From an uncultured Hyphomicrobiales bacterium (GTDB lineage Bacteria; Pseudomonadota; Alphaproteobacteria; Rhizobiales; Devosiaceae): a DNA stretch of 34,642 nucleotides. How positions within the stretch are numbered: the stretch's first letter is position 1; each line of letters opens with the position of its first letter. The notes beneath the pieces are model-generated. The model ran no database searches, had not been told where the DNA came from, and saw nothing but the letters and a program-made list of their open reading frames with translations. The position numbers and the translations under genes are program-made. Location: NCBI GenBank assembly GCA_903828145.1, contig CAIKKY010000025.1, forward strand, positions 1 through 34,642. Reading direction: 5' to 3'. Positions 1 through 22,221 of this stretch are shown here, piece after piece.

Positions 1-324
1 GATCCGGTTTGTGTCCGGGTCGAGCTTCACCCGGCGCCCGGACGCCCAGCGGTAGGCCTTGTCATGTTCGTTGACGTGCACGAACATGATGTCGCGGCCC
101 ACCTCAAAGGCGATCGCGCGGTATCCTTGGTCGAGGCGCAGAGATTTTATCGAGCTGTCCTTCGCCCCCTCGACCGTCTCGAGGTTCAGACCGTTCCCGG
201 ACGGTTCGGACATGTAGCGGGTCATCATGTCCATGAACTTGATCGCCACACGGTCGGGCAGCTTGCGCAGGCTCTTCATGCAGCCGATGTCATAGGAGAC
301 GCGCTTGGTTATTGTGTCCGTCAT
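1..324 (-). CDS. UvrD/Rep-like helicase with RelE-like N-terminus (partial, start only)
   Basis: Only the first 108 residues are in the window; the frame is open to base 1. The start is ATG at 324, preceded by a perfect AGGAGG seven bases upstream, and it overlaps the stop of the upstream helicase gene as ATGA (321-324), implying translational coupling. The visible part resembles the RelE/ParE-like domain found at the N-terminus of some UvrD-family helicases: a short basic helix region with KLPDRVAIKF (21-30), then SLRLDQGYRAIAF (61-73) and VNEHDKAYRWA (84-94). By analogy the missing remainder would be an SF1 helicase, and it would be the fifth member of the defence operon. It could instead be a free-standing RelE-fold protein; the helicase itself is not visible. 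Confidence 0.7.
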   Translation of the reverse strand, partial: MTDTITKRVSYDIGCMKSLRKLPDRVAIKFMDMMTRYMSEPSGNGLNLETVEGAKDSSIKSLRLDQGYRAIAFEVGRDIMFVHVNEHDKAYRWASGRRVKLDPDTNRI

Positions 325-3300
325 GTCCGTGCCTCCTGAAGGGCCGTGATGATTCTTGAGACCGTCTCCGCGATCTGATCAGTTTCCGGGTCAAAGTGGA
401 TCAGGGCCCAGCCCACACCCTCAAAGGATGTCTCGACTACCGCGACGCGTGGGTTCGACCATCCGAATTCCATCGCGCCCACCACGCGTCCGCCCGCGAC
501 AAGGTCGTCCCCAAAGTGATCAGGCCCGGTCGTCTCGGCCGCGATCAACGCATCGATCAGCGGGTGGAACATCTCGTCACAAAGCGCGCGCGCCTCTGCC
601 CACGCTGCCGCACCCGGCTCAACTTCTGACTGGGCGCCCCGCTCAGACATATCCGGCGGCGCCAGCGTGTCGAGCCCGTCTGCTTCTACATGGAGCCCGC
701 GCCCGCCCTGAAACAGGTTCACAATCCGCCAGAGGCCGCGCCACGCTTCGGTGTAAAGGGTCTTCGCGGATGGAACCTCGCCCGGATCCGGAAGGACCGC
801 ACGCAGGACAAGCCGGATGTCCTGGTCCGATTGGGCCCATTCGGCCGGCGAGATCTTGTCACAGGCCAGATAAAGGTCGAGTGCCCCAACCCCGACATGT
901 TCCGATGCTTCCGGCTTGGCGAGGAAGAGCCGCCCGGCCTCGGAGAGGGCCTGTTGCCGGGGGAGCTGATCGAGCAGTCGCCCCCCCTTCACGAGGCCCC
1001 GGATGAGGACGGACCGGATCGCCGCATCCCCGTCTGTGTCGCCGTCGAGAAGGCGCCTCATCGCATTAAGCGTGCTGATCGTTTGAAGTGCCCGGACCGC
1101 CTCCGCATGTGGCGCGAGCAGGTGGTGCGCCAGCGCTCTCCCCAGCGGCCCGGTCATCTGCGTCCCGAGGGCGGTCTCAGAGAGCGGGTTCAGGTAGCCG
1201 CTGTCCTCCGGGTCTAGGTCTCGCCAGGACATGGTCCAGACCCGCACCTGCCCAGACCGTATCATCAGCATCCGGTCAAGGAGGTCCTGCGCCACAGTGC
1301 GTGCGTGATATTCGATCCCATCCATCTCGATTACGACTGGTAGCCCACCGCCCCGGCTGACAGGCGTGAGCAGGAAGTCGACTCTCTTGCGGGGAAGGCC
1401 CGGAAAACGGGCGTCGATCTGCACCTGCGGCTCGATCGTCCAGAGGCGCGGCGCGTCCACCCGGCCAGCACGGAGCACGAAGCCGCGACGTCCCCCGGGA
1501 AGGACCTGCGGCGTCAGGGTCCCATCTCCGTAAATGGTGGACAGAGCCCCTAGGAGCCTTTTTTCGAGCGCGCTTTCTACCAGGCCCCCCCGGATCGACT
1601 CGTCGATCCCGGTCTCGGTCCGGGTCAGACTGTCCCACTTTTGGAGGATCGCCTCCATCATCTGCAGCGCCCGGTCGCGGTCCGGCTCCCCTGGTCCGAA
1701 CTGTGACCGGTAAGGCTTTACGCAACGGAAGCAGCCGTTACGGTCCGGCTCCTGGTTGCAGGGGCAGTCTCGGAGCGCCTCCGCCGCGCGGCTGATCACC
1801 GCGCGCATCGTGTCCGGGTGCTCTGCGATCTGACGCAGGTAGCCTGAACCGCCTGGAACGGAGTCATAGAGGTAAAGACTGCGTATAGTGGCCATCCCGT
1901 TAAGCTGCGCCTGGAAAATAGTGGACCGGATGTGGTCAACTTTCCCCGCAAAATGACGCCGCATCCCGAGGTTGATCGCCGCAACAAAGCTCTTGAGGTC
2001 ATCGTCGTCCGCGTCGCCGACCACGGGGATCACAATCCGGATCGCCTCTGTGTCGAACTTGCGCATCAGGAACACGCCAGTCTCCCAAAGGTCTCGGGGC
2101 AGCGCCTTGTCCCGCATCACGAGACAACTTGGCGGGTGCGTACCGCGATCGTCCTCGCCGCGTGCTGATTTTTGAAGGGACCCACAGTGTCGGCAGATCT
2201 GGAACGGCTGGGCCGGCCGGCGCTCGCCCGCGATCCTAGGGCCCGGGAGAGTGGATTTCGGGCCGAAGTTGAAGTCCCGGAATGTGCACTGGGGCAGGAA
2301 CTCAAACCCAAATGGGGCGCCGTTATCCCGGCTTGTGAACCAAGAGCTGGCGATGTCCTCCGGCCCATGGAAGGGCATTAGCACCCGGTCGAACTGGCGC
2401 TGGTCCCGCTGATCTCCGTCCCGGATGGCGGCCTTTTCCTCGCTGCCCACCGAGATGACGGACTTCAATTGTACCACGTCATGCTCGGAGCCGCTGTCCG
2501 ACCACATCTCGTCGCCGCATTTCGGGCAGGTGCGGCTCTCCGCGCCCTCGATCCGATGCGCGACATGGGAACAAGCCGGGCAGAAGGTCCAGGCGGTCAG
2601 GTCCTCCTTGCCGATCTCGATCCGGTCAATCTGCACCTGGCGCCCGTTCGCATAAAAGAACTGCCCCGGTGCAAACTCCGAAAGGGCGGAGCTGGCCGGG
2701 CGCGAATATTCCTTGTGCAGGAGCCCATCCTCGTCGCGCGCGACGGCGCTGTCGTTACGCCGCGACAGGATCGAGGTCAGCTTCACCCCCTCTTCCGGGA
2801 AGGCGTAATTCGGCAAGATCCCTTTGTCTGTGAGGAACTTGATCACCGGCACTTCGTCGATCCCGCTCCGGATCAGCCGGTTGATCTCTGTCCGGTCCCG
2901 GCTAAGATCCTGCTCGCGACGCTGATACTCTTCATCTGTCAGCTCGACGCGGTGCTTTTGGAGCCGCTTTAGCTCCTTAGTCGCCTCTTCCCGCTTTTCC
3001 GCGAGCCGGGCTCGCTCCGTAGCGGCCGCGTCGAAGGCTTCCCCAACGCGCCACCCGATCGATTTCGGGTCCGTCCCGGTTAGGTAGGACCGGATGCGAT
3101 CTGCCAGATCCGTCCGATCACGAACCTCCTGTGGCAGGCCGGAAAGGAAACGGTCCGCTAGCTCCTGTCCTGAACCTCGGACCAGCTCAAGCCATTCATT
3201 CGGGAACCCCTCGGTCGAGTCCGAAGTTCGGCGTTTGAGGACGTCACGGACCTTCCCGTAATCCCCGCTCTCGGTTGTCTGGGACACGTAGACGTCGAGA

Positions 3301-6300
3301 GTGAACGCGGTCACCTGGCGAAGAAGTACCTCCTCGGCCGCGAGGAACACGCCAGGCGGGCGGACCTGGCCCGCCAGCATCGGGGTCGGGTTCTCCCAAA
3401 ACTGAAGGTCGTGCGCGCGCGCGTTCGCCAGCACCATGTTCAGCGCGTTCCCGTCACGCCGTCCACTCCGCCCCATTCGCTGGACGTAGTTCGCCTCCTC
3501 TGGCGGAACCGAACTCAGGAGCAGTGTAGAGAGATCTCCGATGTCGATCCCCATCTCAAGGGTCGGTGTGGCCGAGATCAGGTTCGGGGCCCAGCGGGTC
3601 TCCCCCTTGATGAAACCGGTCTCGACCCGCAGCCGCTCATCCGTATCGAGGATACCGGTATGCTCTCGGGCAACCACCCTATGGTTGCGGTCCGAGCTTA
3701 GGGATCGGCGCAGGGCGGGTCGGTCAGTCTGCTCCGTGGAGGCGAGGTACCCGTCGCAGCCGATCCGAGTACAGGAGGATCCGACGAGTACCTCCGCGCT
3801 ATATGCGAGCCCGGTTTCGCGCCGGCCGCACCGGTCGCAGGTGAGCCCGATGGTGGCAGTGGATACCGTGACCCGCTCCGGCACCACAAGCCAGGCGTGC
3901 CGCTGCTGCCCCTCCGGCCCGTCTACGCGTCGGACGATGTCGTCAGCCTCAAGCCGCCGAAGCAGGATAGGGTATATCGTGTCCGGGTCAGTCCCATAGC
4001 GCAAATTGGATGGACCAATCGTCCGGAAAAGCCAGTCTCGATACCAGCTCCCGGTTCCGGTCCGGGTAATCCGTTCGAACCCGGTCGGGGGTTGGCTAAG
4101 GGTTACCGGGATCGGGGCAAGGCCCCGGCGACCGTCCGGGCTCGGCAGGGAGCCACTCTTACCGACGCACTGGATAGCCGCCGCGTACCAGTTCAGCCCG
4201 TAGTTTGCCTTTCCGGTCGCGATTGCGCTCTCAATATAAGGGTGCGCCACGGACCCCTGTCGGCGCATCCGCTGGGTCACCCCGGCAAGCAGCCGGGTCA
4301 ACAGTGTCGGGGAGAACTCAGGCGCGCCCGGCAACTCGTTGCGCAGTTCACTCGACAGCCGGTCCGCGGAGAGACCAAGCAGGTCCGTCGGGACATCTGC
4401 CGCCGCCATCCCGCTCAGTTCGAGCGTGTGGTTAAAATGCGCCCGGTAGCTCAGATCAACGAAGTACTCCCAGCCAAGCCGGATCCGGATATGGTCGAGA
4501 AAGACCGGGTCCGTGATAGTGATCCCGTTTTCGATCAGGTCCTGGTAGCGGCGCCGCCAGGTCAGTTCCTTCGGAATGAAGAGAGCTGTGAACTCGTCGG
4601 GGCCCATGTCGGCCAGCTGTGCGCGAGGGAGGTCATCGATCACCTCGTGCAGGCTCATCGCGCCGCTCTCTGCGCTGCGCAGGGCCCCGTAGAGAGCCTT
4701 TTGGTAGACTGAAAGGGCGTTCCGGGTCTCGGCGACCGATGCCCGGTGGGCTGCGTCCTGAACAGAGTCCGAGAACATCAGGAAGCGCGGTTTTGCCTCC
4801 GGCCGTTCCTCGTTCTGTTCCGAAGTAAAAAGCGTCCCGGTAATGCCGCTCGTCAATCGTGCCGCTCGCATCCCGAACAGGAGGAGCCCGCGCGCCTGTC
4901 CACAGGCAGGGCAAGTCCGATCGATACGGCCGTTTGCGTCCGTCGGGTTGTAAATCCAGACCGGCGAAGCCGGGCCTGGCTCGAGATGGTCATGATCTGC
5001 CGGGGTGAACTCGACCGTCTCCGCGTTGAGCACCCCCTTCACGATCTGGCCCCCGGCGCCGCTCGCCTGGACCATGCGGTCGATAGACTCGTGATAGATG
5101 AGCCGGATCCGGTCTGCCCCGTTTTCGTCGAAGAACTCCCGATAAAGCTGCTCGAGGTCCGCATAGAGCGACTTGGACCGGGCATCCTGCCGTCCGAGAT
5201 GTGCCGTCGCTCCGCAGCGGTTGCAGTTCACGACGGGCAAGGTCCCGCGAAGCATATTCCGGTCCAGGTCTAGCGCGTGGAACAGGTCCATCTTCGAGCG
5301 GACGCGGCCAACCTCAAACCGCGGCAGGGTCGTAACCATCCGGGACATCTCCCGGATCCAAAGCTGAAGCCGCACGTTAAAAAGCGGCCTGGGGTTATTG
5401 ACCGCTCCGGATCTGGCCCACGCAACCAAGGCGACGACCAGTTCGGCCAGCGCGCTTTTATCCGTCTCCGGCCAGTCCCGAAGGGCCCGAACCTGTCCGA
5501 GTCCGGCCGCGATAACCTCTAACGAGGCAGGCCCCTTAAGGTCTGCGATGATCTTCAGGGTCCGCTGGCACAAATGGTGCTGGACCAGCCGGTGCCCGAG
5601 TGCGATCCGCCATTCTGGTTCCGCCGGGTCACCCTCGTCGAGGAAGGCGAGGTCCGGAGCAGTTCGATCAGTAAACAAGCAAGCGGCCAGCCGCCGCGCA
5701 GCCCCTGGCTGGTCCATCTCACCGGCCTCGCGCAATGCCGCGTGAATCTCGGTGGGGTCTGGCCGGTCCAGGTATTCCGGGTCGTTGAACACCTCGTTAG
5801 GGGTCTTGCGGGTCTCCCGAACAACAGCGTTCTCGTCGAACGGCTCACCGAAAATCGTCTCTGCGTAGCGCCTCAGTTCTATCGCTGCTTCCTCGCCAGA
5901 GCCGAGCGTAGCCGAGGAGCCGACGCAGATCAGGTGTCCTTCCGGGGTATTCAGCCGGTATTTCAGGCGGCGCAGCAGGAGGGCAAGGTCCGCTCCTTGC
6001 GCGCCATCGAAAGTATGCATCTCATCGACCACTAGGAACCGGAGCGTCTCTGGGTCGTTCTGCGCCCACAGGGTTTTGTCGCGCCCGCGCAGCAGCAGGT
6101 AGTCGAGCATCTTGTAGTTGGTGAGAAGGATGTCGGGCGGGTTCCTCCGCATCGTCTCGCGATGGGTGATGACGCTATCCGCCGTCACCTCATATGTTGC
6201 GTTCTTTGGCTCGGCGTCGGCGTAGATACCCGCGCGCAGACCGCTCAAAGATGGAATCGTAGAAATAGCTGCTGCGATCCGGCGCGCCTGATCGGTTGCC

Positions 6301-6719
6301 AGTGCGTTCATCGGGTAGATCAGGATCGCCTTGATCCCGGGCTTGCCCTTGTTCCGTCGACAGTGGTCGAGGATCGGCCAGAGGTAGGATTCCGTCTTGC
6401 CTGACCCTGTCCCGGTCGCGACCAGCGTCGATCTCGTCGCTGCACCGGTCAATCGGGCGAAGGCGTCCGTCTGGTGCTGGTAGGGCGCAAATCTCAGCGG
6501 CACCTCAGGGAAGGGCTGCGCCCAAGTACCCTCCTTGGCACTATCGATCTGCCGGAACGGCATGTCGACCGAAATCCACGGTCCCTTGATGAAGTTCCCG
6601 GGCTCAGCGATGAACCGGTCCACCATCCCCTCGAAGGCGGGGCTGGTCGTGTTCAGCGTCGTATGGACCAGTTCGCGCAGGCTGTCCTGCACATGCCGGG
6701 CGAGGAGGATCGGGTTCAT
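321..6719 (-). CDS. Giant DEAD-like helicase with DUF1998 region and Vsr/DUF559-like nuclease domain (DrmA/DrmB-like)
   Basis: A 2132-residue protein. An SF2 helicase core is visible: Walker A ATGTGSGKTES (101-111), DEMH box (232-235), SSATLG (268-273), the FSDSVQDAA motif that opens the second RecA lobe (649-657), and a motif VI region QRMGRSGRRDG near 1080. Cysteine pairs suggest zinc ribbons at 499/502 with 603/606, near 960-985 and near 1380-1405. The CPC...CFRC cluster (1652-1666) is typical of DUF1998/MrfA-type helicases. After it, VDFLL (D1781), VVIEMDG (E1798, D1800), H1805 and DLLDR (1812-1816) resemble the PD-(D/E)XK core of Vsr/DUF559 nucleases. About 320 further C-terminal residues are unrecognised. 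The start is ATG 6719, one base after the methyltransferase stop. In DISARM, DrmA (helicase) and DrmB (DUF1998) are separate; here both roles seem to be in one chain. A Druantia DruE-like assignment is the main alternative. The likely role is DNA translocation or unwinding in phage defence. Confidence 0.85.
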   Translation of the reverse strand: MNPILLARHVQDSLRELVHTTLNTTSPAFEGMVDRFIAEPGNFIKGPWISVDMPFRQIDSAKEGTWAQPFPEVPLRFAPYQHQTDAFARLTGAATRSTLVATGTGSGKTESYLWPILDHCRRNKGKPGIKAILIYPMNALATDQARRIAAAISTIPSLSGLRAGIYADAEPKNATYEVTADSVITHRETMRRNPPDILLTNYKMLDYLLLRGRDKTLWAQNDPETLRFLVVDEMHTFDGAQGADLALLLRRLKYRLNTPEGHLICVGSSATLGSGEEAAIELRRYAETIFGEPFDENAVVRETRKTPNEVFNDPEYLDRPDPTEIHAALREAGEMDQPGAARRLAACLFTDRTAPDLAFLDEGDPAEPEWRIALGHRLVQHHLCQRTLKIIADLKGPASLEVIAAGLGQVRALRDWPETDKSALAELVVALVAWARSGAVNNPRPLFNVRLQLWIREMSRMVTTLPRFEVGRVRSKMDLFHALDLDRNMLRGTLPVVNCNRCGATAHLGRQDARSKSLYADLEQLYREFFDENGADRIRLIYHESIDRMVQASGAGGQIVKGVLNAETVEFTPADHDHLEPGPASPVWIYNPTDANGRIDRTCPACGQARGLLLFGMRAARLTSGITGTLFTSEQNEERPEAKPRFLMFSDSVQDAAHRASVAETRNALSVYQKALYGALRSAESGAMSLHEVIDDLPRAQLADMGPDEFTALFIPKELTWRRRYQDLIENGITITDPVFLDHIRIRLGWEYFVDLSYRAHFNHTLELSGMAAADVPTDLLGLSADRLSSELRNELPGAPEFSPTLLTRLLAGVTQRMRRQGSVAHPYIESAIATGKANYGLNWYAAAIQCVGKSGSLPSPDGRRGLAPIPVTLSQPPTGFERITRTGTGSWYRDWLFRTIGPSNLRYGTDPDTIYPILLRRLEADDIVRRVDGPEGQQRHAWLVVPERVTVSTATIGLTCDRCGRRETGLAYSAEVLVGSSCTRIGCDGYLASTEQTDRPALRRSLSSDRNHRVVAREHTGILDTDERLRVETGFIKGETRWAPNLISATPTLEMGIDIGDLSTLLLSSVPPEEANYVQRMGRSGRRDGNALNMVLANARAHDLQFWENPTPMLAGQVRPPGVFLAAEEVLLRQVTAFTLDVYVSQTTESGDYGKVRDVLKRRTSDSTEGFPNEWLELVRGSGQELADRFLSGLPQEVRDRTDLADRIRSYLTGTDPKSIGWRVGEAFDAAATERARLAEKREEATKELKRLQKHRVELTDEEYQRREQDLSRDRTEINRLIRSGIDEVPVIKFLTDKGILPNYAFPEEGVKLTSILSRRNDSAVARDEDGLLHKEYSRPASSALSEFAPGQFFYANGRQVQIDRIEIGKEDLTAWTFCPACSHVAHRIEGAESRTCPKCGDEMWSDSGSEHDVVQLKSVISVGSEEKAAIRDGDQRDQRQFDRVLMPFHGPEDIASSWFTSRDNGAPFGFEFLPQCTFRDFNFGPKSTLPGPRIAGERRPAQPFQICRHCGSLQKSARGEDDRGTHPPSCLVMRDKALPRDLWETGVFLMRKFDTEAIRIVIPVVGDADDDDLKSFVAAINLGMRRHFAGKVDHIRSTIFQAQLNGMATIRSLYLYDSVPGGSGYLRQIAEHPDTMRAVISRAAEALRDCPCNQEPDRNGCFRCVKPYRSQFGPGEPDRDRALQMMEAILQKWDSLTRTETGIDESIRGGLVESALEKRLLGALSTIYGDGTLTPQVLPGGRRGFVLRAGRVDAPRLWTIEPQVQIDARFPGLPRKRVDFLLTPVSRGGGLPVVIEMDGIEYHARTVAQDLLDRMLMIRSGQVRVWTMSWRDLDPEDSGYLNPLSETALGTQMTGPLGRALAHHLLAPHAEAVRALQTISTLNAMRRLLDGDTDGDAAIRSVLIRGLVKGGRLLDQLPRQQALSEAGRLFLAKPEASEHVGVGALDLYLACDKISPAEWAQSDQDIRLVLRAVLPDPGEVPSAKTLYTEAWRGLWRIVNLFQGGRGLHVEADGLDTLAPPDMSERGAQSEVEPGAAAWAEARALCDEMFHPLIDALIAAETTGPDHFGDDLVAGGRVVGAMEFGWSNPRVAVVETSFEGVGWALIHFDPETDQIAETVSRIITALQEART

Positions 6720-6720
6720 C

Positions 6721-9700
6721 TCACGCGGCCTCTTCGGATTTCAGCCGCTCAAAATGGGCCCAGGCGCGTTGGTAGTCTTCGATCCGGTCGCACTGGGTGA
6801 AGGGGCCGGTGAAGTGGCGGGTGACGGTTCGGGGGCCACCGGGCATCGTGTCGTCGATCGCGGTGCAGGTCAGTTCAAAGGGGTTGTCGGCGAGGATCTT
6901 CTCCCATGCGGCGCGGCCGGGGCTTTTGCCGCGGTCGTCGAGCCAGCCGACGCCGGGCAGGCCCTTGGAGCAGGTCCAGACGATCCGGCCGTTCTGGTCG
7001 AACCACGTCCCCTCCTCATATTGCTGAAGGATCGGGAAATAGATCCGATAAATCTCGATCAGCTGGTCAAGGCTCAAGCCGAGCGCCTGCGCAACCAGCA
7101 CGTCGATCTCGACCAGCGCTATGCGGCGGGCGAACTCGGTGCGAATACCGGCAGTTCTGTCCCAAGTGGTCGAGCCTTCTACGGGACCGTCGAGGCGGAG
7201 GCGGGAGTCGGTGGAAGACCAAGGAAGAACCTCAAGCGTGGGGGCGTGGCGGTTCCAAAGGTCGGCGTAAGCCGATGTCAGGCAGGCAAGGCGGAGAGAG
7301 CGATGCAGCGCCGTAGGCGCGACCTCCGTCCAAGGCAGAGCGCTGACGTCCCGGTCGTGCAAGTTTGTTTTCCCGCTTGCCTTGATTAAGTAGTCATACG
7401 TAATTGAGGTAAGCAGTGTTGCAGCGTTCAGCATCAGACGATCATCATTAAACGCCAGACTGTCCACGCTATTCACATGCGCTACGCCTCGTGGAATTAC
7501 GGCGCCGATCAGACTCCGCTCTCCATTGAGGGCAACCATTTTCCTTACTGCAAAGCGGAAAGAATCCGCATGACCCTTTGTTGGGTCCCAACGGCAGCGC
7601 GCCATCCGGCTTCCGTATTCACCAAGGTCTAGCGCTGGGGCATAATTGGTTCGAGGCAAGTAATCGTCTGGTGCGTTGGGCAGGTCGATCACGTTGTAAT
7701 CAGCATTCGTCCGCGAAACCGCTTTCGGTGACTTATAGAGTGGGTTTCCGACGTGAAAAAGAGGTCCCTGAAGGATCATCTGACTAGCGGGACGAAAGGC
7801 TGTTTCGCGTCGGATATTCCCATTGCGTTGATCTGTCGTCTCATTCCAATCATGGCCCATCTGCCAGAGCGGCACCTGGATCGTCCGCGCTCCCGCCGCC
7901 GTCGTAACTGTGCGCTCCAGTTTCGGGATCGCAGCATCAAGTTTAGGGAAGCGCGCCATCTGACGAAACACGTTGAGGGTCCGAGCCGAATACGGCTGAA
8001 TAAACCGGGCCTCATCAACAGGAACCGTTTCTTCTTCGGAAAGCGTATGAATCACCCCGAGAGCGTTATGGTCAATCCGCATCACACGATCACGATGACC
8101 GCGGGTATCCCAGTTTCCTTCGGAATTTTTGATGCTGGGGACTGGGCCAATACCGTCCTGATCAGCGTAGGAGTCGTCGATCTGTGCAGCACAGAAAGCG
8201 TAAGTGAATTTTTCAAAATCAGGCGCGCTCGCTTCACCACGATAGATGTTCAAGCTGAACCTGACATTGTGGTCAACCTCCATGAAGTTCCGAGATTTCA
8301 TTCGATTGATGAACTCAAAGTGCTTCGCGATGCGCGCGTACCAGTGCCGCCGGAACGCCCCCGACTTCGGATCGCCCAGATGCCCGTCCTGATGGATCAG
8401 CGCCGCATAACCCTGCGGCGCGACCAGCCGGAACGACAGGTCGATGAAACAGCGATAGAGATTGTTTGATCCGCCCCCGGCGAAAGGGTTCATCACGTCG
8501 GACGAGGTCACCTCCATCGCCCCCCGGGTCGACACGAAGTCCTGAAGAAAGGCATCAACTGCTGGGACCAGCCGCCCCTCACGCCGTACTGGCAGCGCCT
8601 TCGGCAGTGCTTCAGGTATAACCTGCCGAGCGTCTGATGCCGACAGACCTGAATAGAGCGGGTCAATATCCGCCAGCACCAGCCCCTCGTTCCACCCCGG
8701 CCTCGCCCAGGGCGGGTTTCCGACGATCACGTCAAACCCACCCCGCGCCTTCATCACGTCGGCGAAGATCAGGTCGAAATGCACGAAGCGCTCACGCTCG
8801 GCCACCTCGACAGCCGTCTTCAACCAGTCGAAATTCTCAATCAGCGCCTCTACGTTCGTTTCCCGGAACAGTCCGTCCTGCCGCTTGGCAGCGGCCTTAA
8901 ACAGGTCGCGCGCGGGCGCCTCGGGTTCCAGCAGGTCGAGGAAGTCCGGGGCCGGATCGGCGAACTCCGCCACGCTGGGGGCGGCCAGCGATCCGTCGGC
9001 GGTGAACCCGCCCTCAAGGATCATGGCCATCCCCTGAAGAAACTCCGCCCGGCCGGGCAGCAGATCCGCCTTGTCCAGCGGCCAGAGCCAGAGCGCGCAC
9101 CACGCGTCCATCGCGGTTTTCAGCCGCTTGTAGGGGAGCGTGTTGGTCGCGTGATCCTCCCCGACAAGACGCGCCTTCAAACGGGCCTTTTCGTGGAAGT
9201 CCATCTGCTTGTTGCCCGGCATGACCTTGTCAGGCCAGAGCGTGATCTCGTCATTCGCGGCGGCGCGCGTCTTGGCGAGATCCTCAGCGACCTGATCAAA
9301 GAGCGCCCCTGCGACGCGGCTGAGCTTCTGGACCAGCTTGATTTCATGGGGTTCGAGCTTTTTGAAGAAGCCGTCCTTGCGCCATGCCTTGATCTTTTCC
9401 TGGGCTAATTTCGCGAAGGGGGCGATCGACTTGTCTTTATCGAAGTTCGCCATGTCCTTGGCGGGCAGGAGCCACTGCCAGACGTGCCCATTCGGCAGAC
9501 GTTTGCGCCAGCCGATCTCATCGGGTTTATCGTTGAACCACAGATCGCCTGGCGCCTTGACGCTGAGAAGCGACGGGGCATAGGCAGCCCGGCGCGCCCC
9601 GATCAGGGAGTTGCCGGCGTGAAGCTGGTCTCCGAACCAGGGCGAGAACTCGCTGCCGTGCAGGCTGTTCAACCAGAGCGAAATCGCCCCGAGTTCGACA

Positions 9701-11643
9701 GCGATGGGGTTCAGGTCGACTCCGAAGCAATTCCGGTCGGCGATATAGGCCCGGACCCGCTGCTTCTCGAGGACGATGTCCTCCTGCGGGATTGTCCGGC
9801 CCATCTCCTTCTGCTTGCGCTCCAGATAAAGGTCGGCAAGCTGGTTCGCGGTTTCGACAAGGAACGCGGCGGAGCCCATCGCGGGTTCGAGGATTTTCAG
9901 ATCAAGTAGATCGTCAGCAGTCAGGTCCCGGCAACGCTCCATCAGCGCGTGCTTGACCAGCAACCGCGCGAGTGGCTCAGGTGTGTAATAAGAGGCAGAC
10001 TTTTCCCGGTCCCGGCCCGCGAGCCGGTAGATGAAGGTGCCCTTTTCATAGACGAGCGCCTCAGGCCCGTTGAAGACGACCTCGTCCGGGGAGAACTCGT
10101 TGATCCGACTGCGTGGGACGAACCAGCTCGGAGCCAGCTTGTCCACTTTGTCACGGCGGAACGCATCGTCCTGTTCGGCCTGATCTTCGCCGAACAGTTC
10201 CTCCTCTACGTCCTCGTCCGGCTCCAGCGTTTCCGCCTCTTCCCCGTCCTCGGCCCCGTCGTTGGACCGGCCCTTGCGGGGCTTCAGCTCGATCAGGTCC
10301 GTCTTGGCGACGACCCCGGTGAAAGAGATCAGGGTCTCATATACCGCGCCCAGTTGGCCGATCCCGAGCTTGGCGTAGGAGATCCGACCTGTGCCCTTGC
10401 CGGTGGACCGGAGTGACAGCAGCCGGATCACCTGCTGAACCGCGTCGTTGCGCAACCGCAGCCCGTTCAGGAGCGGCGTGCTTTCTGGGTCGAGCAGGGA
10501 CACCTTGACGGCCGGAAAGCGAAGACCAGTACCCCACTCTTTGTCAACGAGGTCGAGGCCGGTATAAAGAAGGTCAAGGGTCCGCTGGAGGCTTTCCCAG
10601 AGGAAGGTTCCCTCTCGGTCGGCCAAGGTTCGGAGCGGAACGGATTCCAGCTCGCGCAGCGCTTCGAGCGAATACCCGGTTGCGTAGATCGGGTTGCGCA
10701 TGTCCAGAAGGTTCAGGCGCGGGTTCGCCTCCGCATAGAACAGAAACAGGAGCCGGTACATGTAGCGTAGGCACTCGCGCGACAGGTCCGGCCCATCGAT
10801 CCAGACCCCCTTGTCTTTCCCGCCGGTGATGTCGAGTACCTCCTGACCGAGAAGCTCGATTGCGTCGCGGACGGTCCGCTTCAGTGAGGTGGTGACCGCG
10901 TTGGCGTTCCGCTGCGCCTCCTCCTCGAGCCGGTCGGACAGCGGCGCCCCCTGGTCCGGGACGCGCGCTTCACGGGAGATCAGGCACGCCATGACTGTCA
11001 GCGTATCCCGGTCCGCCCGGGTGAAGATCTCCTGGAGATCGAAACGAAGGACGGACCGGGCCGGCCATTTCCGCTTGTCGATCAGCACGATCTGCGACAG
11101 GCCAAGGACCAGCACGTGACGTGGCCCGTCGGGCAGCTCGAACACTCCCTCGCCGAGGACGGATTCGATGGTCCGGTCGAGCAGTGCCGCCTCGCGCAGG
11201 TCCGACGGGAACTGGTCCTCAGTGAAGCAAACGCCGAGCGGGTCGGCCGCCTCGTCCTCCTGTGTCGGGATCGGTGCTTCGATAACCCAGAGCGCATCAC
11301 GACCGCTCGCGTCCGCGGCGCGGGACACGAGCGGGATCACCGGCGCTCCGTCGAGAGCAGTATAGGCCCCCTCGCGCCGCCAGGTGTAGCCGAGGGCTGT
11401 CAGTACATCGTGATGCGCGTCCCGGACCAGCTCTGCGCGCCGGGACCGATCCGAACTATTGCGGACCTGGCGAAGGGCCTCGACAGTCAGTCCGGCGACG
11501 CGGGCAAGCCGCTCGACCGGATGGGCAGCCCGGTCCAGTCCGGACCAGCGCGAGGTGATGTCCTGAAGCTCTTCCTTCAGCACGTCCGACAGTGTCCCGG
11601 ACGGGAAGAACTCAGCCTCGTTTTCGATCCCGATTAGGTCCAT
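6721..11643 (-). CDS. Adenine-specific DNA methyltransferase, DrmMI/PglX/Eco57I-like
   Basis: A 1640-residue protein expected to methylate adenine N6 at a specific site, marking host DNA in the defence system. SAM-binding and catalytic motifs are clear: SYYTPEPLARLLVKHAL (551-567), motif I ILEPAMGSAAFL (584-595), GVDLNPIAVELGAISLWL (641-658) and the gamma-class catalytic GNPPWARP (975-982). About 300 residues are inserted between the first motifs and NPPW, as in PglX and DrmMI. Residues 464-493 form an acidic, probably disordered linker. The N-terminal 300 residues may be a decayed nuclease-like fold; ALWVIEAP (117-124) has an E but no following K, so cleavage activity is doubtful. The start ATG 11643 lies four bases after the SNF2 gene stop. 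DNA coding for about residues 1100-1420 is distinctly AT-richer, which fits an exchanged target-recognition region. Confidence 0.9.
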   Translation of the reverse strand: MDLIGIENEAEFFPSGTLSDVLKEELQDITSRWSGLDRAAHPVERLARVAGLTVEALRQVRNSSDRSRRAELVRDAHHDVLTALGYTWRREGAYTALDGAPVIPLVSRAADASGRDALWVIEAPIPTQEDEAADPLGVCFTEDQFPSDLREAALLDRTIESVLGEGVFELPDGPRHVLVLGLSQIVLIDKRKWPARSVLRFDLQEIFTRADRDTLTVMACLISREARVPDQGAPLSDRLEEEAQRNANAVTTSLKRTVRDAIELLGQEVLDITGGKDKGVWIDGPDLSRECLRYMYRLLFLFYAEANPRLNLLDMRNPIYATGYSLEALRELESVPLRTLADREGTFLWESLQRTLDLLYTGLDLVDKEWGTGLRFPAVKVSLLDPESTPLLNGLRLRNDAVQQVIRLLSLRSTGKGTGRISYAKLGIGQLGAVYETLISFTGVVAKTDLIELKPRKGRSNDGAEDGEEAETLEPDEDVEEELFGEDQAEQDDAFRRDKVDKLAPSWFVPRSRINEFSPDEVVFNGPEALVYEKGTFIYRLAGRDREKSASYYTPEPLARLLVKHALMERCRDLTADDLLDLKILEPAMGSAAFLVETANQLADLYLERKQKEMGRTIPQEDIVLEKQRVRAYIADRNCFGVDLNPIAVELGAISLWLNSLHGSEFSPWFGDQLHAGNSLIGARRAAYAPSLLSVKAPGDLWFNDKPDEIGWRKRLPNGHVWQWLLPAKDMANFDKDKSIAPFAKLAQEKIKAWRKDGFFKKLEPHEIKLVQKLSRVAGALFDQVAEDLAKTRAAANDEITLWPDKVMPGNKQMDFHEKARLKARLVGEDHATNTLPYKRLKTAMDAWCALWLWPLDKADLLPGRAEFLQGMAMILEGGFTADGSLAAPSVAEFADPAPDFLDLLEPEAPARDLFKAAAKRQDGLFRETNVEALIENFDWLKTAVEVAERERFVHFDLIFADVMKARGGFDVIVGNPPWARPGWNEGLVLADIDPLYSGLSASDARQVIPEALPKALPVRREGRLVPAVDAFLQDFVSTRGAMEVTSSDVMNPFAGGGSNNLYRCFIDLSFRLVAPQGYAALIHQDGHLGDPKSGAFRRHWYARIAKHFEFINRMKSRNFMEVDHNVRFSLNIYRGEASAPDFEKFTYAFCAAQIDDSYADQDGIGPVPSIKNSEGNWDTRGHRDRVMRIDHNALGVIHTLSEEETVPVDEARFIQPYSARTLNVFRQMARFPKLDAAIPKLERTVTTAAGARTIQVPLWQMGHDWNETTDQRNGNIRRETAFRPASQMILQGPLFHVGNPLYKSPKAVSRTNADYNVIDLPNAPDDYLPRTNYAPALDLGEYGSRMARCRWDPTKGHADSFRFAVRKMVALNGERSLIGAVIPRGVAHVNSVDSLAFNDDRLMLNAATLLTSITYDYLIKASGKTNLHDRDVSALPWTEVAPTALHRSLRLACLTSAYADLWNRHAPTLEVLPWSSTDSRLRLDGPVEGSTTWDRTAGIRTEFARRIALVEIDVLVAQALGLSLDQLIEIYRIYFPILQQYEEGTWFDQNGRIVWTCSKGLPGVGWLDDRGKSPGRAAWEKILADNPFELTCTAIDDTMPGGPRTVTRHFTGPFTQCDRIEDYQRAWAHFERLKSEEAA

Positions 11644-11647
11644 CCGG

Positions 11648-14596
11648 TCACCCTACAAATACGGCTTTGACGTCCACGTGCGGGTTCGGGTCGGCCACCA
11701 TGTGGCGGGTCCGCTCAAACCATTCCGTCCAGTCGTGGAACAGCTTATCGATCTCCTGTTCCCGCTTGCGGCGGATGGTCAGGCGTCTCTTTTCTGCCGG
11801 GCTCAGCCCCTCATCGCCCCCGGGCAGATCGCCCAGATCAAGCGTGAGTTGTGCCCGGAACCGCGTCTCAAGGGCGGACAGCCGGTCGAGGACCGCGTCC
11901 AGGTCCCTCTGGATATCCGCCTCCCGCGCCTTTCGTAGCGCGACGAGATGCGTCTGGAACCGGTCTACTGCGACCGGGATCGCCGCCTGCGCCGCTGAGA
12001 GGTCCTCAACCGGGCGGCTTGGGGTGTCTCCAGCGATCCGAGTCCGCTCCAGAAACGCGCCGACCTCCTCGATCCGGATTGTCCCGTCCAGCGACCGGAT
12101 CACCGTTGCCCACCGGTCCACCAAAGGAGCCCCGTTTGCGTTCGGGATCGCCCCATGCAGGATGACTGCAATTTCACCCGGAGGTAGACGCCCCATGAGC
12201 GACGCTACAGGGGCCGTATGTTCCGGGAAGAAGGTGCTGGCCCGGTCCGCAAACCAGTCGAGGATCGGGTGACAGTCCCAGAGGAACTGCACAGTTGGCC
12301 AGGCCCGCTCCTGCGCCTTCGCGTCACTGATCGCCTGGTTGATCACACTAGCTTGGTCAGTGAGCTCGATACGCCCCCCTGGGCCCACCGCCTCCTCCGG
12401 CATGAACCGCCCGTCCACCGCGCCCTCGCTCGCGTAGCCGAACCCGTCCCGGGCCCGCATATCGGCAGGAATGGCGAGTTGAATCAGACGGTCGGTTTCC
12501 TGAATTCTCGGCAGCTCCGTGAAGGCCTTTTCTTCCGGCCGAGACAACCGCTCGATCATCGCGCGGGCATAGGTGAATGTATCCCTATAGAGGCGGGGCG
12601 GGCCCTGATCCGTGGGGGGCGCCGCCTCGGCCGGTGCTGGGGCTGCATAATCTCCGAAGAGGGCCGCGAACTCATCGTTGACCGAAATATGGGTGAACGC
12701 CTCCGCGGCACGCGTGTCCATCTGGCGCTCGAACGCCTCACCGCCGATACCGGTGGCCACAGCCTCCGCTACGACCGCCTCCTCCCCGTCCGCGTCCCCT
12801 GCGCCTAGGAACACAGCCGGGTCCCCGACCCCTGCCTGCGCCGCCTCGTCCTTGGCAACAAGCTTCTCAAGAACCCACATCTGACGCACCTTGGGGTGCG
12901 TGCTTTCGCCTACGAAGTAGCTAATCTGCGGCGGTCGGTCCTGACCATATCGATCAATCCGCCCGTTGCGCTGCTGGAAACGCAAAAGCGACCAAGGGAG
13001 GTCGAAATGGATCAGGCGATGGCACTGGAAGTGCAGGTTGAGCCCCTCGGACGCCATGTCCGAAGCGATCAGGATCCGGATAGGGGAGCGCTCCTGGCCA
13101 AACGCCTCGATCACTTCTTGGGTCTGAACGTCTGCCTCGACACTGCCCCCGTCCACCCGCGCCACTTGGTCCGGTGAAAGATTCAGATCCTCACGCAGTC
13201 GATCGGCGAGCCAAGAGACGGTCGCGATCCGCTCTGAGAAGATGACCAATCGGTCCCGGGCCGCCCTCCCGGTCCATTTGAGCTCGCGCAATAGGCGCAG
13301 AAGCTCCTGGTACTTGCTGAACGCGCCTGTGTCGATCGCGGCCACGTCGTCGGCGAGCGCCCGCAGCCGGTCCCTATCCGCTTCCGTCCCGCGGGCGGTC
13401 CCTTTTTCGATTCCCCGGATCCGTCGTGAGAGCGTCTCGAAACAAGCGGCCGGGCTAGAGAAGATCGCCTTGGCGATCGTGGTCCGGAATAGGTCGATTG
13501 CGCGCCCCTTGGTCTGCTCCTCATCGAGATCGAGGTGCAGGTCTGCGATCGCCTGATAGGCTACCTCTTCCTGCGGACTGAGCGGGAAGCGGCGCGGGAA
13601 AAGTTGCCGCTTTGGAACAGCCCGGCCGATGTCCGCAACCACCTCCGGCGAAGACCGAAAGCGTCGGATAACAAGATCCTCAATGTCAGACCTTTGAAGG
13701 CGGGTCGGGTCCGGTACGCGGGTCGGGTCCAGCATGCGGATGAGGCTCGCGAAGCTCTCTTGCGACCCGTCATGCGGGGTCGCGGTCAGCAGCAACAGGG
13801 AGTCAGTCCGGCGCGACAGAAGCTGAGCCAACTCGGCCCGCTGCGAATTCGACCCTGCTGCTGACTTTCGTTCGGCTGCGTTATGCGCCTCGTCGATGAT
13901 AATCAAATCCCAGTAGGAATGCTTCAGAGCATCCCGGATCTGGGTATCCCGCTTTAGTGTGTCGATTGAGACGATGGACCGATCGAACTGATCGAACACA
14001 TTGTAATGGGCCGGGATCCGGTTCCGCATCCGCCGGATAGCGGCGCTGTCGAGCCGGGAGAGGGGGATCGAAAACCGGGTCCAGAACTCCTTCTGGAACT
14101 GGGTCAGCATTGCACGGGTCGTGACCACTAGGATCCGATCCGCCCGACCCCGCAGGGCAAGCTCAGAGGTGATCAGGCCGGCCTCAAGAGTTTTTCCGAG
14201 ACCGACGTCGTCCGCGATTAGTAGCCGCACCCGGTCCTGGACCAGCGCCCGCTCCACCGGCAAGTGCTGGAAGGTCAGATCGTCGATCGCGGCCCGGCCG
14301 AGCGTGAGGGGGCGGCGCGACGTAGTCGGTGTGGCCCGGAACGCGGCCGCTAGGTGTAGCTTCGTGTCGATCAGTCCGGACGACGTGTCCGGGACGAGCC
14401 GGACTGCGGCGGGGTCCAGAACGCGCGGGCCCTTTTCGAGTTCCCAAACGAAGCGTGCCTCCTTGTCTCGCACGATACCGGACAAGCCGCGGCAATGGAT
14501 CTCCCTGAAACCATGCTTGAGGGTCGAGGTGCCGAGCACCTTCCAAGTGGCGGAACGCAGGCTTATGACGGAGCCAGGTTGAGGTACAGCACTCAC
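11648..14596 (-). CDS. drmD: SNF2-family helicase, DrmD-like
   Basis: A 982-residue SF2/SNF2 ATPase. Walker A DDVGLGKTLEAG lies at 129-140, IIIDEAH at 232-238, TATPHDG at 271-277, and the second lobe ends in QQRNGRIDRYGQ (541-552). An N-terminal domain of about 100 residues precedes the motor, and the last 400 residues lack a recognisable enzyme motif. The arrangement matches DrmD, the SNF2 component of class 1 DISARM, and its position directly before a DrmMI-like methyltransferase supports that. The start is GTG at 14596, overlapping the regulator stop as GTGA (14593-14596), so translation is probably coupled. It presumably moves on DNA to help recognise or process unmethylated invading DNA. 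BrxHII-type SNF2 proteins of type 3 BREX are the closest alternative, but no PglZ, BrxC or BrxA is present here. Confidence 0.85.
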   Translation of the reverse strand: MSAVPQPGSVISLRSATWKVLGTSTLKHGFREIHCRGLSGIVRDKEARFVWELEKGPRVLDPAAVRLVPDTSSGLIDTKLHLAAAFRATPTTSRRPLTLGRAAIDDLTFQHLPVERALVQDRVRLLIADDVGLGKTLEAGLITSELALRGRADRILVVTTRAMLTQFQKEFWTRFSIPLSRLDSAAIRRMRNRIPAHYNVFDQFDRSIVSIDTLKRDTQIRDALKHSYWDLIIIDEAHNAAERKSAAGSNSQRAELAQLLSRRTDSLLLLTATPHDGSQESFASLIRMLDPTRVPDPTRLQRSDIEDLVIRRFRSSPEVVADIGRAVPKRQLFPRRFPLSPQEEVAYQAIADLHLDLDEEQTKGRAIDLFRTTIAKAIFSSPAACFETLSRRIRGIEKGTARGTEADRDRLRALADDVAAIDTGAFSKYQELLRLLRELKWTGRAARDRLVIFSERIATVSWLADRLREDLNLSPDQVARVDGGSVEADVQTQEVIEAFGQERSPIRILIASDMASEGLNLHFQCHRLIHFDLPWSLLRFQQRNGRIDRYGQDRPPQISYFVGESTHPKVRQMWVLEKLVAKDEAAQAGVGDPAVFLGAGDADGEEAVVAEAVATGIGGEAFERQMDTRAAEAFTHISVNDEFAALFGDYAAPAPAEAAPPTDQGPPRLYRDTFTYARAMIERLSRPEEKAFTELPRIQETDRLIQLAIPADMRARDGFGYASEGAVDGRFMPEEAVGPGGRIELTDQASVINQAISDAKAQERAWPTVQFLWDCHPILDWFADRASTFFPEHTAPVASLMGRLPPGEIAVILHGAIPNANGAPLVDRWATVIRSLDGTIRIEEVGAFLERTRIAGDTPSRPVEDLSAAQAAIPVAVDRFQTHLVALRKAREADIQRDLDAVLDRLSALETRFRAQLTLDLGDLPGGDEGLSPAEKRRLTIRRKREQEIDKLFHDWTEWFERTRHMVADPNPHVDVKAVFVG

Positions 14597-15450
14597 CCAA
14601 GAACTCCTGAAACCGCATCCCGATTCAGCAGCGCGATTTGCTGATCCTGGGGGCGCCGCGCGCTGGGATCGGTGTCCAGACCCACTCGCTTTAGTGCGTA
14701 ATAAAGCGGCGCTTTCCGGACCGGGATCTTGGCCTTCCCGCTACGCATTCCGTAGTCGAGAGCGATGACGTTCTGCTGCGTGTCGGATAGTTCCGGGTGA
14801 GGCACGATTTCCAGGGTCACATGCTCGTTCCATGCGGCATCCGCCCCAGCCTGCGCTTCGTTCGGCTTCGTGCCGCGGGTCTCGACGATCCGTGAGAGCA
14901 GGAAGTCCTTGAAGCTTTGATCGGTGAGGCAGAAGGCTCGCGTGTGCCAGCGGAACCCGTCGAACCCGATCGCGTGTGGCGCGATCCACCGCCAGCGAGG
15001 CTCCGGCCGGGAGAGCGACTGGTACTTGACCTCGATAGCCTCAGATCGCCGGATCGCTGCCGTCACCGAGCGCAGCGTCGTGGCATTCATGCCGCGCACC
15101 GGCGTGGGCGCAGCGTCGTAAGTCGGAAACTCGCTGATCCAGGCATCCGACCGATCAAGGATACCTTCGGCAACGGAGCGGAGTTGGGAGAGGTAGCGGC
15201 TGGCATCAGGTTTCAGAAACAGCGGGTCGAACTCGGCGGCCCTGGCATAGGTGCGAGCGCTCTTGTCGTAGACCATGTTGCCAGGCGCCATTTCGCTATA
15301 GCGGTTCAGGTCGGTTGATGCTTGGTTCATCGAGACTCCAAAGGCTTCGACCAGATCTCCTCGATTCAACTGGCCCTCCCAGAACAACCGGAACTCGATG
15401 AACTCGAGCCGACGCTCTACGCCCCATCGCAGGCGTCGCTTTTCGCTCAC
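14593..15450 (-). CDS. WYL-domain transcriptional regulator, BrxR/CapW-like
   Basis: A 285-residue protein when started at the GTG at 15450, which has a GAGGAG sequence about six bases upstream and gives the family-typical opening (KRRLRWGVERRLEFIEFRLF). The frame stays open to an ATG at 15696, but those 82 extra residues look like translated intergenic DNA. A winged helix-turn-helix lies at about 10-60, a WYL domain at about 125-195 (VKYQSLSRP, WIAPHAIGFDGFRWHTRAF), and a C-terminal WCX-like region at 205-285. The family (BrxR, CapW) comprises dimeric repressors of BREX, CBASS and other defence operons that respond to infection-derived ligands. As first gene of the operon, coupled to drmD by a GTGA overlap, it probably represses its own transcript; the ligand is unknown. 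Confidence 0.88.
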   Translation of the reverse strand: MSEKRRLRWGVERRLEFIEFRLFWEGQLNRGDLVEAFGVSMNQASTDLNRYSEMAPGNMVYDKSARTYARAAEFDPLFLKPDASRYLSQLRSVAEGILDRSDAWISEFPTYDAAPTPVRGMNATTLRSVTAAIRRSEAIEVKYQSLSRPEPRWRWIAPHAIGFDGFRWHTRAFCLTDQSFKDFLLSRIVETRGTKPNEAQAGADAAWNEHVTLEIVPHPELSDTQQNVIALDYGMRSGKAKIPVRKAPLYYALKRVGLDTDPSARRPQDQQIALLNRDAVSGVLG

Positions 15451-15705
15451 CCGTTTCTCCTCTTCGCCGCCACTGGGAAGCGGTGACTGGGTAACTGGAA
15501 CCGCACAGTTTATTGTCGTAACCTGCACGCTAAGCGCATAGGCTCTCCTGCACAAGAGGATGGCGTTGACCAACTCGCGCGTCATGGCCTTGCACGGTTT
15601 GGCTATGCTTGGCTGCTCGGGATATTGGACTTTGGCCGCTAGATGGTAATTGCCCTGAGCTTTCTTCGTTCCTGTTAATTGAGTGACCAAACGCACGCGC
15701 AGCTC

Positions 15706-15725
15706 AAGCTAAAGCATGTTAGCTT
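15706..15725. promoter_or_regulatory. Perfect 7-bp inverted repeat, candidate regulator operator
   Basis: AAGCTAA and TTAGCTT form a perfect inverted repeat with a six-base spacer. It lies in the divergent intergenic region, 27 bases upstream of the -35 of the plus-strand small gene and about 255 bases from the regulator start. Dimeric WYL regulators of the BrxR/CapW group bind palindromes near their own promoters, so this is a candidate operator, but the distance from the regulator start is large and binding is inferred. Confidence 0.35.
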
Positions 15726-15751
15726 ATTTATGCTTCAAACAGGCTGCCTCG

Positions 15752-15779
15752 TTAGCCTTCTCGCCCTAAATGCTATACT
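15752..15779 (+). promoter_or_regulatory. Candidate promoter for the 65-residue gene
   Basis: TTAGCC (15752-15757) and TATACT (15774-15779) are separated by 16 bases. The -10 element ends only nine bases before the ATG at 15789, so the transcript would be leaderless or nearly so. No ribosome binding site is seen in the AT-rich stretch before that ATG, which agrees with leaderless translation. Confidence 0.4.
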
Positions 15780-15788
15780 ATTTTATTT

Positions 15789-15986
15789 ATGCACGGATTG
15801 GGTCGTCGCATCGCAAAATTGGAGCTTGACGTCCCGGCAAAGGCTTTTCCGGGAACGGCTGTCGCCATTTCGGACCTCGACCCCGAGGTGGCCCAAATTT
15901 TCCTTGCCCATAACCGCGACGTCACCACCATGACCGTAGATGAGCTCGACGCGCTCGAAGCAGAGCTTCTGAGGTTCACCGAATGA
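15789..15986 (+). CDS. Small hypothetical protein
   Basis: A 65-residue protein I do not recognise. It begins with a basic stretch (GLGRRIAKLE, 3-12) and ends with an acidic leucine-containing helix (VDELDALEAELLRF). Its stop overlaps the start of the following DUF5681 gene as ATGA (15983-15986), which strongly suggests that both are real and co-translated. The pair lies between the defence operon and the tRNA-Arg gene, in DNA with an AT-rich leader. Similar short proteins beside DUF5681 genes occur in alphaproteobacterial accessory regions as far as I recall, but no function can be assigned. Confidence 0.55.
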   Translation: MHGLGRRIAKLELDVPAKAFPGTAVAISDLDPEVAQIFLAHNRDVTTMTVDELDALEAELLRFTE

Positions 15987-16396
15987 ACGGACGAACTACG
16001 GCAGGACGCTTTTCGGCCGGGAACTCTGGTCGGCCTGCGGGTGCGCGCAATAAGGCCACCATGGCTGCGCTCGAACTCATGGACGGCGAAGCCGAGGCGC
16101 TGAGCCGGAAAGCGGTCGACTTAGCCTTAGCTGGCGATACGGTGGCACTGCGGCTATGCCTTGAGCGAGTAGCGCCGCCGCGCAAAGATGCGCCAGTTTC
16201 GTTCGCCCTGCCCGCTATGACGTCGGCTACTGACGCGGCGATTGCGGCGGGCGCCATCCTACAGGCTGTTTCTTCGGGCGACCTGACACCTTCAGAAGCC
16301 GCGCAGGTGATGGGACTTGTGGACAGCTATCGGCGCACGCTGGAGGTTACCGAACTCGAAGCTCGGGTGGCCGCGTTGGAGAACACCGCGATCTGA
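15983..16396 (+). CDS. DUF5681-domain protein
   Basis: A 137-residue protein whose N-terminus has the DUF5681 signature: GRFSAGNSGRPAGARNKAT at residues 8-26, a glycine/arginine-rich motif followed by helical sequence. The rest is helix-rich, with AALENTAI at the C-terminus preceded by a likely coiled segment (residues 110-135). DUF5681 proteins are common in alphaproteobacterial mobile and prophage-like regions and have no established biochemical role that I know of; a DNA-packaging or DNA-binding role is sometimes suspected. It is translationally coupled to the 65-residue gene upstream and ends about 90 bases before the 3' end of the tRNA-Arg gene. Confidence 0.75.
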   Translation: MNGRTTAGRFSAGNSGRPAGARNKATMAALELMDGEAEALSRKAVDLALAGDTVALRLCLERVAPPRKDAPVSFALPAMTSATDAAIAAGAILQAVSSGDLTPSEAAQVMGLVDSYRRTLEVTELEARVAALENTAI

Positions 16397-16410
16397 CGAT
16401 TGCGCGGCGC

Positions 16411-16460
16411 TGCTTCCCATATGCTTCCCAATTCCTAAGCCAAGAGGAGGCTGGGAAGCA
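16411..16460. repeat. TGCTTCCCA direct and inverted repeats beside the tRNA 3' end
   Basis: TGCTTCCCA occurs at 16411-16419 and 16422-16430, and its exact complement TGGGAAGCA at 16452-16460. The second and third copies could form a nine-base-pair stem with a 21-base loop, but no T-run follows, so a terminator is unlikely. The cluster lies between the DUF5681 gene and the 3' end of the tRNA, where integrase arm-type sites would be expected in an island end. That role is inferred. Confidence 0.5.
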
Positions 16461-16487
16461 GTTTCCTGCATAAGTCATTGAAAAATA

Positions 16488-16564
16488 TGGCGCGCCCGAA
16501 GAGATTCGAACTCCTGACCCCCAGATTCGTAGTCTGGTGCTCTATCCAGCTGAGCTACGGGCGC
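16488..16564 (-). tRNA. tRNA-Arg (anticodon ACG)
   Basis: Read on the minus strand, the 77 bases fold as a standard tRNA. The acceptor arm is GCGCCCG paired with CGGGCGC, followed by discriminator G and an encoded CCA. The D-arm contains AGCTCAGCTGGATAGAGC, the anticodon stem is CCAGA/TCTGG around loop CTACGAA, and the T-arm contains GTTCGAATC. The loop gives anticodon ACG, which reads CGU, CGC and CGA arginine codons after conversion of the wobble A to inosine. Its 3' end faces the accessory DNA and is a likely integration site. Confidence 0.97.
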
Positions 16565-22216: not shown

Positions 22217-22221
22217 TGCAG

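Follow-up and report, generated by a model that had tools for sequence, protein, structure and literature searches.

The window analysed here, a stretch of 34,642 nt that begins at base 1 of a contig (CAIKKY010000025.1, henceforth C25) from an uncultured Hyphomicrobiales bacterium of the Devosiaceae (assembly GCA_903828145.1, 2.95 Mb in 32 contigs), very probably carries an ARMADA type II anti-phage operon, which lies behind a gene for a CapW/BrxR-like WYL regulator on an integrative island of around 26 kb in a tRNA-Arg gene. The four core genes are those of ARMADA type II (ArmA-ArmB-ArmC-ArmD), a system known since 2025, and not of a DISARM variant; what the locus adds to ARMADA II is its island in a tRNA-Arg gene and a regulator of CapW type.

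Gene content and order of the operon

The operon consists of five tightly packed genes on the minus strand, as the initial annotation had proposed and as the open reading frames (ORFs) and junction coordinates confirm, with no overlap or gap exceeding four bases. The WYL regulator of 286 aa (14593..15453; Pfam WYL, 1.8e-10) is followed by ArmA, a SNF2/RapA (BrxHII-like) helicase of 982 aa (11648..14596), ArmB, a PglX-like adenine methyltransferase of 1640 aa (6721..11643), ArmC, a YprA-like helicase of 2132 aa with a fused MZB/DUF1998 domain (321..6719), and the first 108 aa of ArmD, the RelE-like region of a UvrD helicase (1..324). The WYL and armA genes overlap by 4 bases, as do armC and armD, whilst the gaps between armA and armB and between armB and armC are of 4 bases and 1 base respectively. 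Because the window starts at the first base of C25, ArmD is cut at its edge. The longest ORF for the WYL protein begins at 15696, the likelier start, judged from annotated relatives, being a GTG codon at 15453. The identities earlier given to the first four genes agree with their Pfam domains, namely WYL; SNF2 and Helicase_C in ArmA; Eco57I and N6_Mtase in ArmB; and DEAD, Helicase_C and MZB in ArmC. We take MZB (MrfA Zn-binding) to be the family formerly called DUF1998.

ARMADA type II has been tested experimentally as an anti-phage system (Bell et al. 2025, preprint, PMC12458937). Its genes have a strict order, encoding a SNF2 protein, a PglX-like protein, a YprA-like protein with a fused DUF1998 domain and a C-terminal nuclease, and a RelE-UvrD protein; the operon of E. 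coli NCTC 12900 gave protection against 13 of 80 phages with no sign of abortive infection, and all four genes were required (PMC12458937). The proteins of the window were compared with those of ATCC 8739, which that study used as its second E. coli strain. Identity is 38.6% over 940 residues for ArmA, 40.5% over 1527 for ArmB and 33.9% over 2006 for ArmC; ArmD, which is represented by the N-terminal fragment in the window and a C-terminal fragment on another contig, C8, is 31.8% identical over 107 residues in the former and 42.2% over 372 in the latter. Of the eight residues that were mutated in E. coli ARMADA, seven are found in the proteins of this genome, the eighth (ArmD K266) falling in an assembly gap; these residue numbers are those of NCTC 12900, applied to ATCC 8739, the motifs of which fit the printed ones. 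K135 and D235 of ArmA are the counterparts of E. coli K136 and D236, G590 and N976 (in NPPW) of ArmB those of G605 and N971, K108 and D232 of ArmC those of K110 and D234, and D126 of the ArmD C-terminal fragment that of D454. Two of the E. coli mutations, of G605 in ArmB and D454 in ArmD, caused only a partial loss of protection (PMC12458937). The locus resembles E. coli ARMADA II in its strict gene order, its domains, seven of eight mutated residues and its position on an integrase-bearing island in a tRNA gene, but differs in having 32-42% identity and a CapW-like WYL gene in front.

The same gene order was sought in other genomes, using the best 80 of 281 loci plus six plasmid loci, less one (L039) that is a copy of another (L007), which leaves 85 loci. 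These reach 10 kb from armB and are not independent of one another; denominators below are the loci in which the genes or upstream stretch needed are in view. The order armA-armB-armC-armD is shared by loci of alpha-, beta- and gammaproteobacteria, of Desulfobacterota-type groups, and of cyanobacteria and Clostridia. That ArmD is present favours type II over type I, BRIGADE, TALON and Dpd. A system already described accounts for four of the five genes, with the WYL gene finding no place in the main text of the ARMADA preprint.

The initial annotation had read the operon as a DISARM class 1 variant in which DrmA and DrmB are fused into one chain and the PLD nuclease has been lost. Its suspicion of a DISARM-related array was well founded. 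ARMADA and DISARM class 1 have two genes in common, those for the SNF2 (DrmD-like) and PglX-like (DrmMI-like) proteins (PMC12458937); in the window, the top match of ArmA is indeed DrmD (NCBIfam, 356 bits), and ArmB matches DrmMI at 199 bits, though below type IIG models at 629 bits. However, the ArmA score lies under the NCBIfam cut-off for DrmD of 610 bits, the giant ArmC scores 331 bits with DruE models against 45 bits with those of DrmA, and the genes are ordered as in the tested ARMADA II. In place of separate DrmA and DrmB proteins there is a single DruE-like chain of 2132 aa, DrmB has no gene of its own, and Pfam detected no PLD domain, as would be expected of the nuclease DrmC, in the four full-length proteins and the ArmD fragment. 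Two models with PLD in their names do match ArmA, apparently through its helicase parts. A DISARM class 1 variant is therefore highly improbable and was rejected: the likeness ends with the DrmD-like helicase and the DrmMI/PglX-like methyltransferase, whilst the YprA protein is nearer to DruE and there is an additional RelE-UvrD protein.

The DruE matches raise the alternative of a Druantia type III-like system, composed of DruE and extra genes, as the two systems share a large YprA-family helicase and the top PADLOC models of ArmC are for DruE. Yet a true DruE protein scores 2039 bits on the model with which ArmC attains 331, and DruH is absent from the PADLOC families listed for the proteins of the operon (for each of them, the best 25 of up to 34). 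In a tree of YprA-family proteins with 28 rows, the ArmC of the window falls among 24 ArmC proteins, the four DruE-like proteins lying separately across the longest branch. This tree covers ArmC and DruE-like proteins and was built by a quick method with long branches flagged; one of its DruE-like rows is partial, and L076 is the only DruE-like row checked with PADLOC. Furthermore, the nuclease of Druantia type III is PLD-like, whereas that of ARMADA II ArmC is of Vsr type (PMC12458937). On the scores and the tree grouping this candidate was rejected, and it appears even less credible than the DISARM variant. The best PADLOC models are in fact identical for the window and ATCC 8739 (DrmD for ArmA, type IIG for ArmB and DruE3 for ArmC, the E. 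coli ArmC having a best model at 348 bits), hence such mixed matches are how ARMADA appears in the 2023 PADLOC library.

The nuclease of ArmC and the extent of ArmD

The profile of ArmC matches YprA among solved structures (6znp, 2.4e-29), ranked below two larger helicases. The statement in the initial annotation that no nuclease is visible holds for a PLD domain but not otherwise, as residues 1779-1834 of ArmC (1218..1385, minus strand) bear a Vsr-like motif. Within it D1781, D1800-G1801 and H1805 are invariant in all 48 aligned rows. In HHalign comparisons with Vsr (nine Vsr proteins of 12 fetched loci), the motif stretch aligned colinearly with a P value of 0.00065 and a probability of 27%; the values for the whole C-terminal region of ArmC were 0.0019 and 14%, and a control stretch gave a P value of 0.074. 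The nuclease thought to be missing is therefore probably the Vsr-like C-terminus of ArmC, as far as motif and profile can indicate.

As for the last gene, described earlier as the start of a probable UvrD helicase, its 108 residues match no Pfam family at an E value of 0.01, yet are 88% identical to residues 1-108 of a UvrD-helicase protein from a Martelella plasmid. A further part of armD on C8 corresponds to residues 346-721 of that homologue, with 89% identity, and the intact homologue has sequence matches to UvrD, PcrA, Rep and HelD structures. The earlier description of this gene was right.

A CapW/BrxR-like regulator in front of the operon

Compared with the sequences of the Protein Data Bank (PDB), the WYL protein has five matches, all to CapW, BrxR or unnamed WYL proteins. 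CapW is the best (7tb6, 2e-63, 217.7 bits, covering residues 5-281 of 286), and BrxR (7t8k) follows at 2.6e-44. CapW/BrxR proteins keep an adjacent immune operon repressed until they bind single-stranded DNA, and operons with damage-responsive regulators include those of BREX, Pycsar, CBASS and DISARM (PMC13373217); with DISARM among them, a CapW-like gene beside a relative of DISARM has a precedent. Given that the WYL protein is CapW/BrxR-like over its whole length, it is likely, by analogy, to act here too as a repressor that single-stranded DNA releases. The protein shares with these regulators both its full-length similarity and its position directly in front of a defence operon, the difference being that it would govern ARMADA rather than CBASS, BREX or another immune operon. 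This link was not found in the literature searched, and in the main text of the ARMADA preprint (PMC12458937) the term WYL occurs once, in the title of a reference.

A gene of this WYL family stands immediately before armA in 15 of the 72 informative ARMADA II loci, the window included. At least nine changes of state are required on the ArmB tree; this figure, like that for the armB/armC junction below, is a minimum count on a single FastTree. The loci concerned are mostly alphaproteobacterial, those outside being L061 (Magnetococcales), L078 (Vogesella) and L091 (Bowmanella). Counts were made with a profile grown out of proteins like that of the window and are low by at least one, a Pfam scan of 62 neighbouring ORFs having given eight WYL proteins against seven already known; a match in L085, 4.3 kb distant and on the opposite strand, was excluded as unlinked. 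Seven of the loci with a WYL gene in front have a palindrome, GCGCATAGTTNNAATGCGC, around 44 bases upstream of the WYL start, and a relaxed form of it had one further occurrence (L040) in the loci and window then searched. Upstream of the WYL gene in the window, a scan of 15440-15990 found two inverted repeats of other sequence (15832-15854; 15706-15725), and no match to a sigma-70-like promoter was found within 15400-16700.

It is also conceivable that the WYL protein does not repress the operon, being instead an activator or serving the mobility of the island. A WYL activator has been described elsewhere (PMC10693628). The protein is moreover only 68-70% identical to its counterparts in L003-L006 and L024, where ArmA is 88-92% identical, indicating that the regulator either evolves faster or was exchanged. 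Against this stand the PDB matches, with CapW the best of them, and the 4-base overlap of the WYL stop with the start of armA; we give an activator or mobility role a modest chance, and favour a repressor of the CapW type.

The island and its distribution

The integration target is a tRNA-Arg (ACG) gene at 16488..16564 on the minus strand. A 48-base, att-like repeat corresponding to its 3' part (16487..16534, minus strand) recurs exactly at C8:3-50 and C6:92-139; as 141 bases at the ends of C8 and C6 are exactly identical, these two contigs overlap there. On C8, the far end of the island, a tyrosine integrase gene (L012, G000:C8, 187-1407) adjoins the repeat, with a Prim-Pol/DUF3987 gene at 2396-4810 and genes for a NAD-binding protein and a Sel1-repeat protein. 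Approximately 16.5 kb in the window, 8.6 kb on C8 and the gap between them sum to an island of around 26 kb, provided that the gap is as long as the part of the homologue that is missing from armD. E. coli ARMADA II is integrated in tRNA-Phe or tRNA-Leu genes with repeats of 16-20 nt, in contrast to the tRNA-Arg gene and 48-bp repeats found here. Where the ARMADA paper names a replication gene of the HUH type (PMC12458937), this island has the Prim-Pol/DUF3987 gene, and no HUH endonuclease was detected by Pfam among the 10 ORFs of C8 that were scanned.

ArmB was found in just one of 136 genomes of the family, that of the window itself. Around the gene adjacent to the tRNA, 19 loci of relatives were available, 17 of which reach at least 0.8 kb past the tRNA (L108 and L110 do not extend past it at all). 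The start of the island was recognised in one of the 17, L101, with 77% identity over 621 bases at the DUF5681 end, and no part of the first 2.5 kb of the island was found in the remaining 16. L101 belongs to a genome of the same genus (G013) in which ArmB was not found, although its tRNA-Arg gene carries an island-like end, and the insert is perhaps a member of the same element family with other cargo. The nearest homologues, with ArmC identities of 85-88%, are plasmid-borne, in Martelella, Haematobacter (two plasmids) and Gemmobacter; the Martelella plasmid and one of those from Haematobacter are typed as conjugative.

Points against an intact, regulated ARMADA II operon

Several observations weigh against the interpretation of the locus as a complete and CapW-controlled ARMADA II operon. 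The Vsr assignment of ArmC stands on a motif and weak profile matches, and a search of PDB sequences with the C-terminal region of ArmC returned no nuclease, but armadillo-repeat proteins, nearly all of them designed. The best PDB match of the ArmD N-terminus is 1wmi, at an E value of only 0.12, so the RelE assignment is weak by sequence; 1wmi is listed as "hypothetical protein PHS013", and is presumably an archaeal RelE protein. Residues 109-345 of the ArmD homologue, including the Walker A lysine, were found nowhere in the assembly, hence armD may be broken. The palindrome GCGCATAGTTNNAATGCGC is absent from the window, and 57 of the 72 informative loci have no gene of this WYL family before armA, which makes the regulator an optional part.

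The missing stretch of armD bears in particular on the possibility that the island is decayed, its ARMADA II genes no longer working and armD interrupted at the break, since the contig ends within this gene. However, the reading frames of the remaining genes are intact and their sequences well conserved, the two ArmD fragments match an intact, stop-free homologue at 88-89% identity, and the data are explained equally well by a simple gap in the assembly of about 0.7 kb, the length of the absent part in the homologue. Decay is considered unlikely.

A mechanism can be proposed from what is observed at the locus, that is its gene content and order, its homology to the tested system, its catalytic residues, the borders of the island and the family of the regulator. 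Judging by the protein families, the WYL protein would hold transcription of the operon low, and single-stranded DNA arising from phage replication or DNA damage would lift this repression. ArmB may then methylate host DNA or mark target sites, with the translocases ArmA, ArmC and ArmD processing DNA recognised as foreign and the Vsr-like C-terminus of ArmC cutting it. Protection would be direct and would not involve abortive infection, in line with what was published on the system in E. coli.

A putative cargo slot between armB and armC in related operons

The most unusual side finding concerns the armB/armC junction in relatives. Gaps of at least 300 bases occur at this junction in 39 of 72 loci, compared with 4 of 80 at armA/armB and none of 53 at armC/armD; inserts of great length go uncounted, as the loci extend only 10 kb from armB. 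The gaps are mostly filled by packed, co-oriented ORFs, with exceptions such as L044, L050 and L055, and the ArmB tree requires at least 13 changes in the state of this slot. In the window the slot is empty, the junction comprising the single base 6720.

In 14 of the 39 filled loci the cargo matches defence models of PADLOC, 20 proteins having been scanned singly and 60, partly the same, as a set. The matches include GajA with GajB (L045, 14737-18862), PifA (L075, 14962-17232), TmtA (L091, 15028-19944), MkoA (L056, 16579-20088) and the Zorya II proteins ZorA2-ZorB2-ZorE2 (L064, 19654-23049). Each of the latter had three more members in the set scan, which by their clusters are in L067, L076 and L094. 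AbiLi (L051), GajA (L086), PDC-S68 (L065), HEC-05 (L083), HEC-06 (L066) and a helicase model (L054) complete the list, matches to helicase and AAA models being broad. Four of the 20 singly scanned proteins matched no PADLOC model at limits of 1e-5 or 1e-10. Slot proteins without a match at 1e-10 include those encoded by L064:15128-17662 (844 aa) and L054:19134-22499 (1121 aa), which are candidates for unknown defence genes.

Seven alphaproteobacterial loci have a 282-aa ORF in the slot (L005, at 13126-13974, L004, L019, L023, L024, L028 and L031). The one copy scanned, from L005, has an ImmA/IrrE (M78)-like match just under the Pfam cut-off (21.5 against 22 bits), and a CapW-like gene is also present in five of the seven, these being all that have a visible upstream stretch. 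The ImmA/IrrE-like protein of these loci may be a second regulator or a toxin module. On a Microvirga plasmid (L007:16765-18281), a hypothetical gene and then one for an ImmA/IrrE metallopeptidase come after the ARMADA II operon; together they are reminiscent of the CapH/CapP regulators.

No description of the armB/armC slot was found in passages and term searches of the main text of PMC12458937: it contains none of the terms "nested", "inserted between" and "Gabija", and "embedded" is used of other things. The literature searched gave no papers on nested defence systems. We regard it as an even call whether ARMADA II is an open chassis, in which the armB/armC slot has repeatedly taken up defence systems (Zorya II, Gabija and others) that share the operon, with one branch under a CapW-type repressor relieved by single-stranded DNA and the window representing an empty-slot, CapW-controlled form.

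Other features of the window

The island has a DUF5681 ORF on the plus strand (15983..16396), close to its tRNA-side end. From around 16668 onwards the genes have a chromosomal look, among them dapD-like, formyltransferase, SelR and RmuC genes. This part contains a minus-strand ORF of 735 aa (20339-22546) that has no Pfam match at 0.001, and is overlapped by a long ORF on the opposite strand (20252-22216).

Implications

The operon takes its place within a defence family that was described recently and is active in experiments, borne here by a tRNA-integrated island and in its nearest relatives by plasmids, some of them typed as conjugative. If the slot is real, ARMADA II operons are a place in which to look for unknown defence genes. 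The locus also ties the ARMADA family to a type of regulator reported to couple defence with DNA damage.

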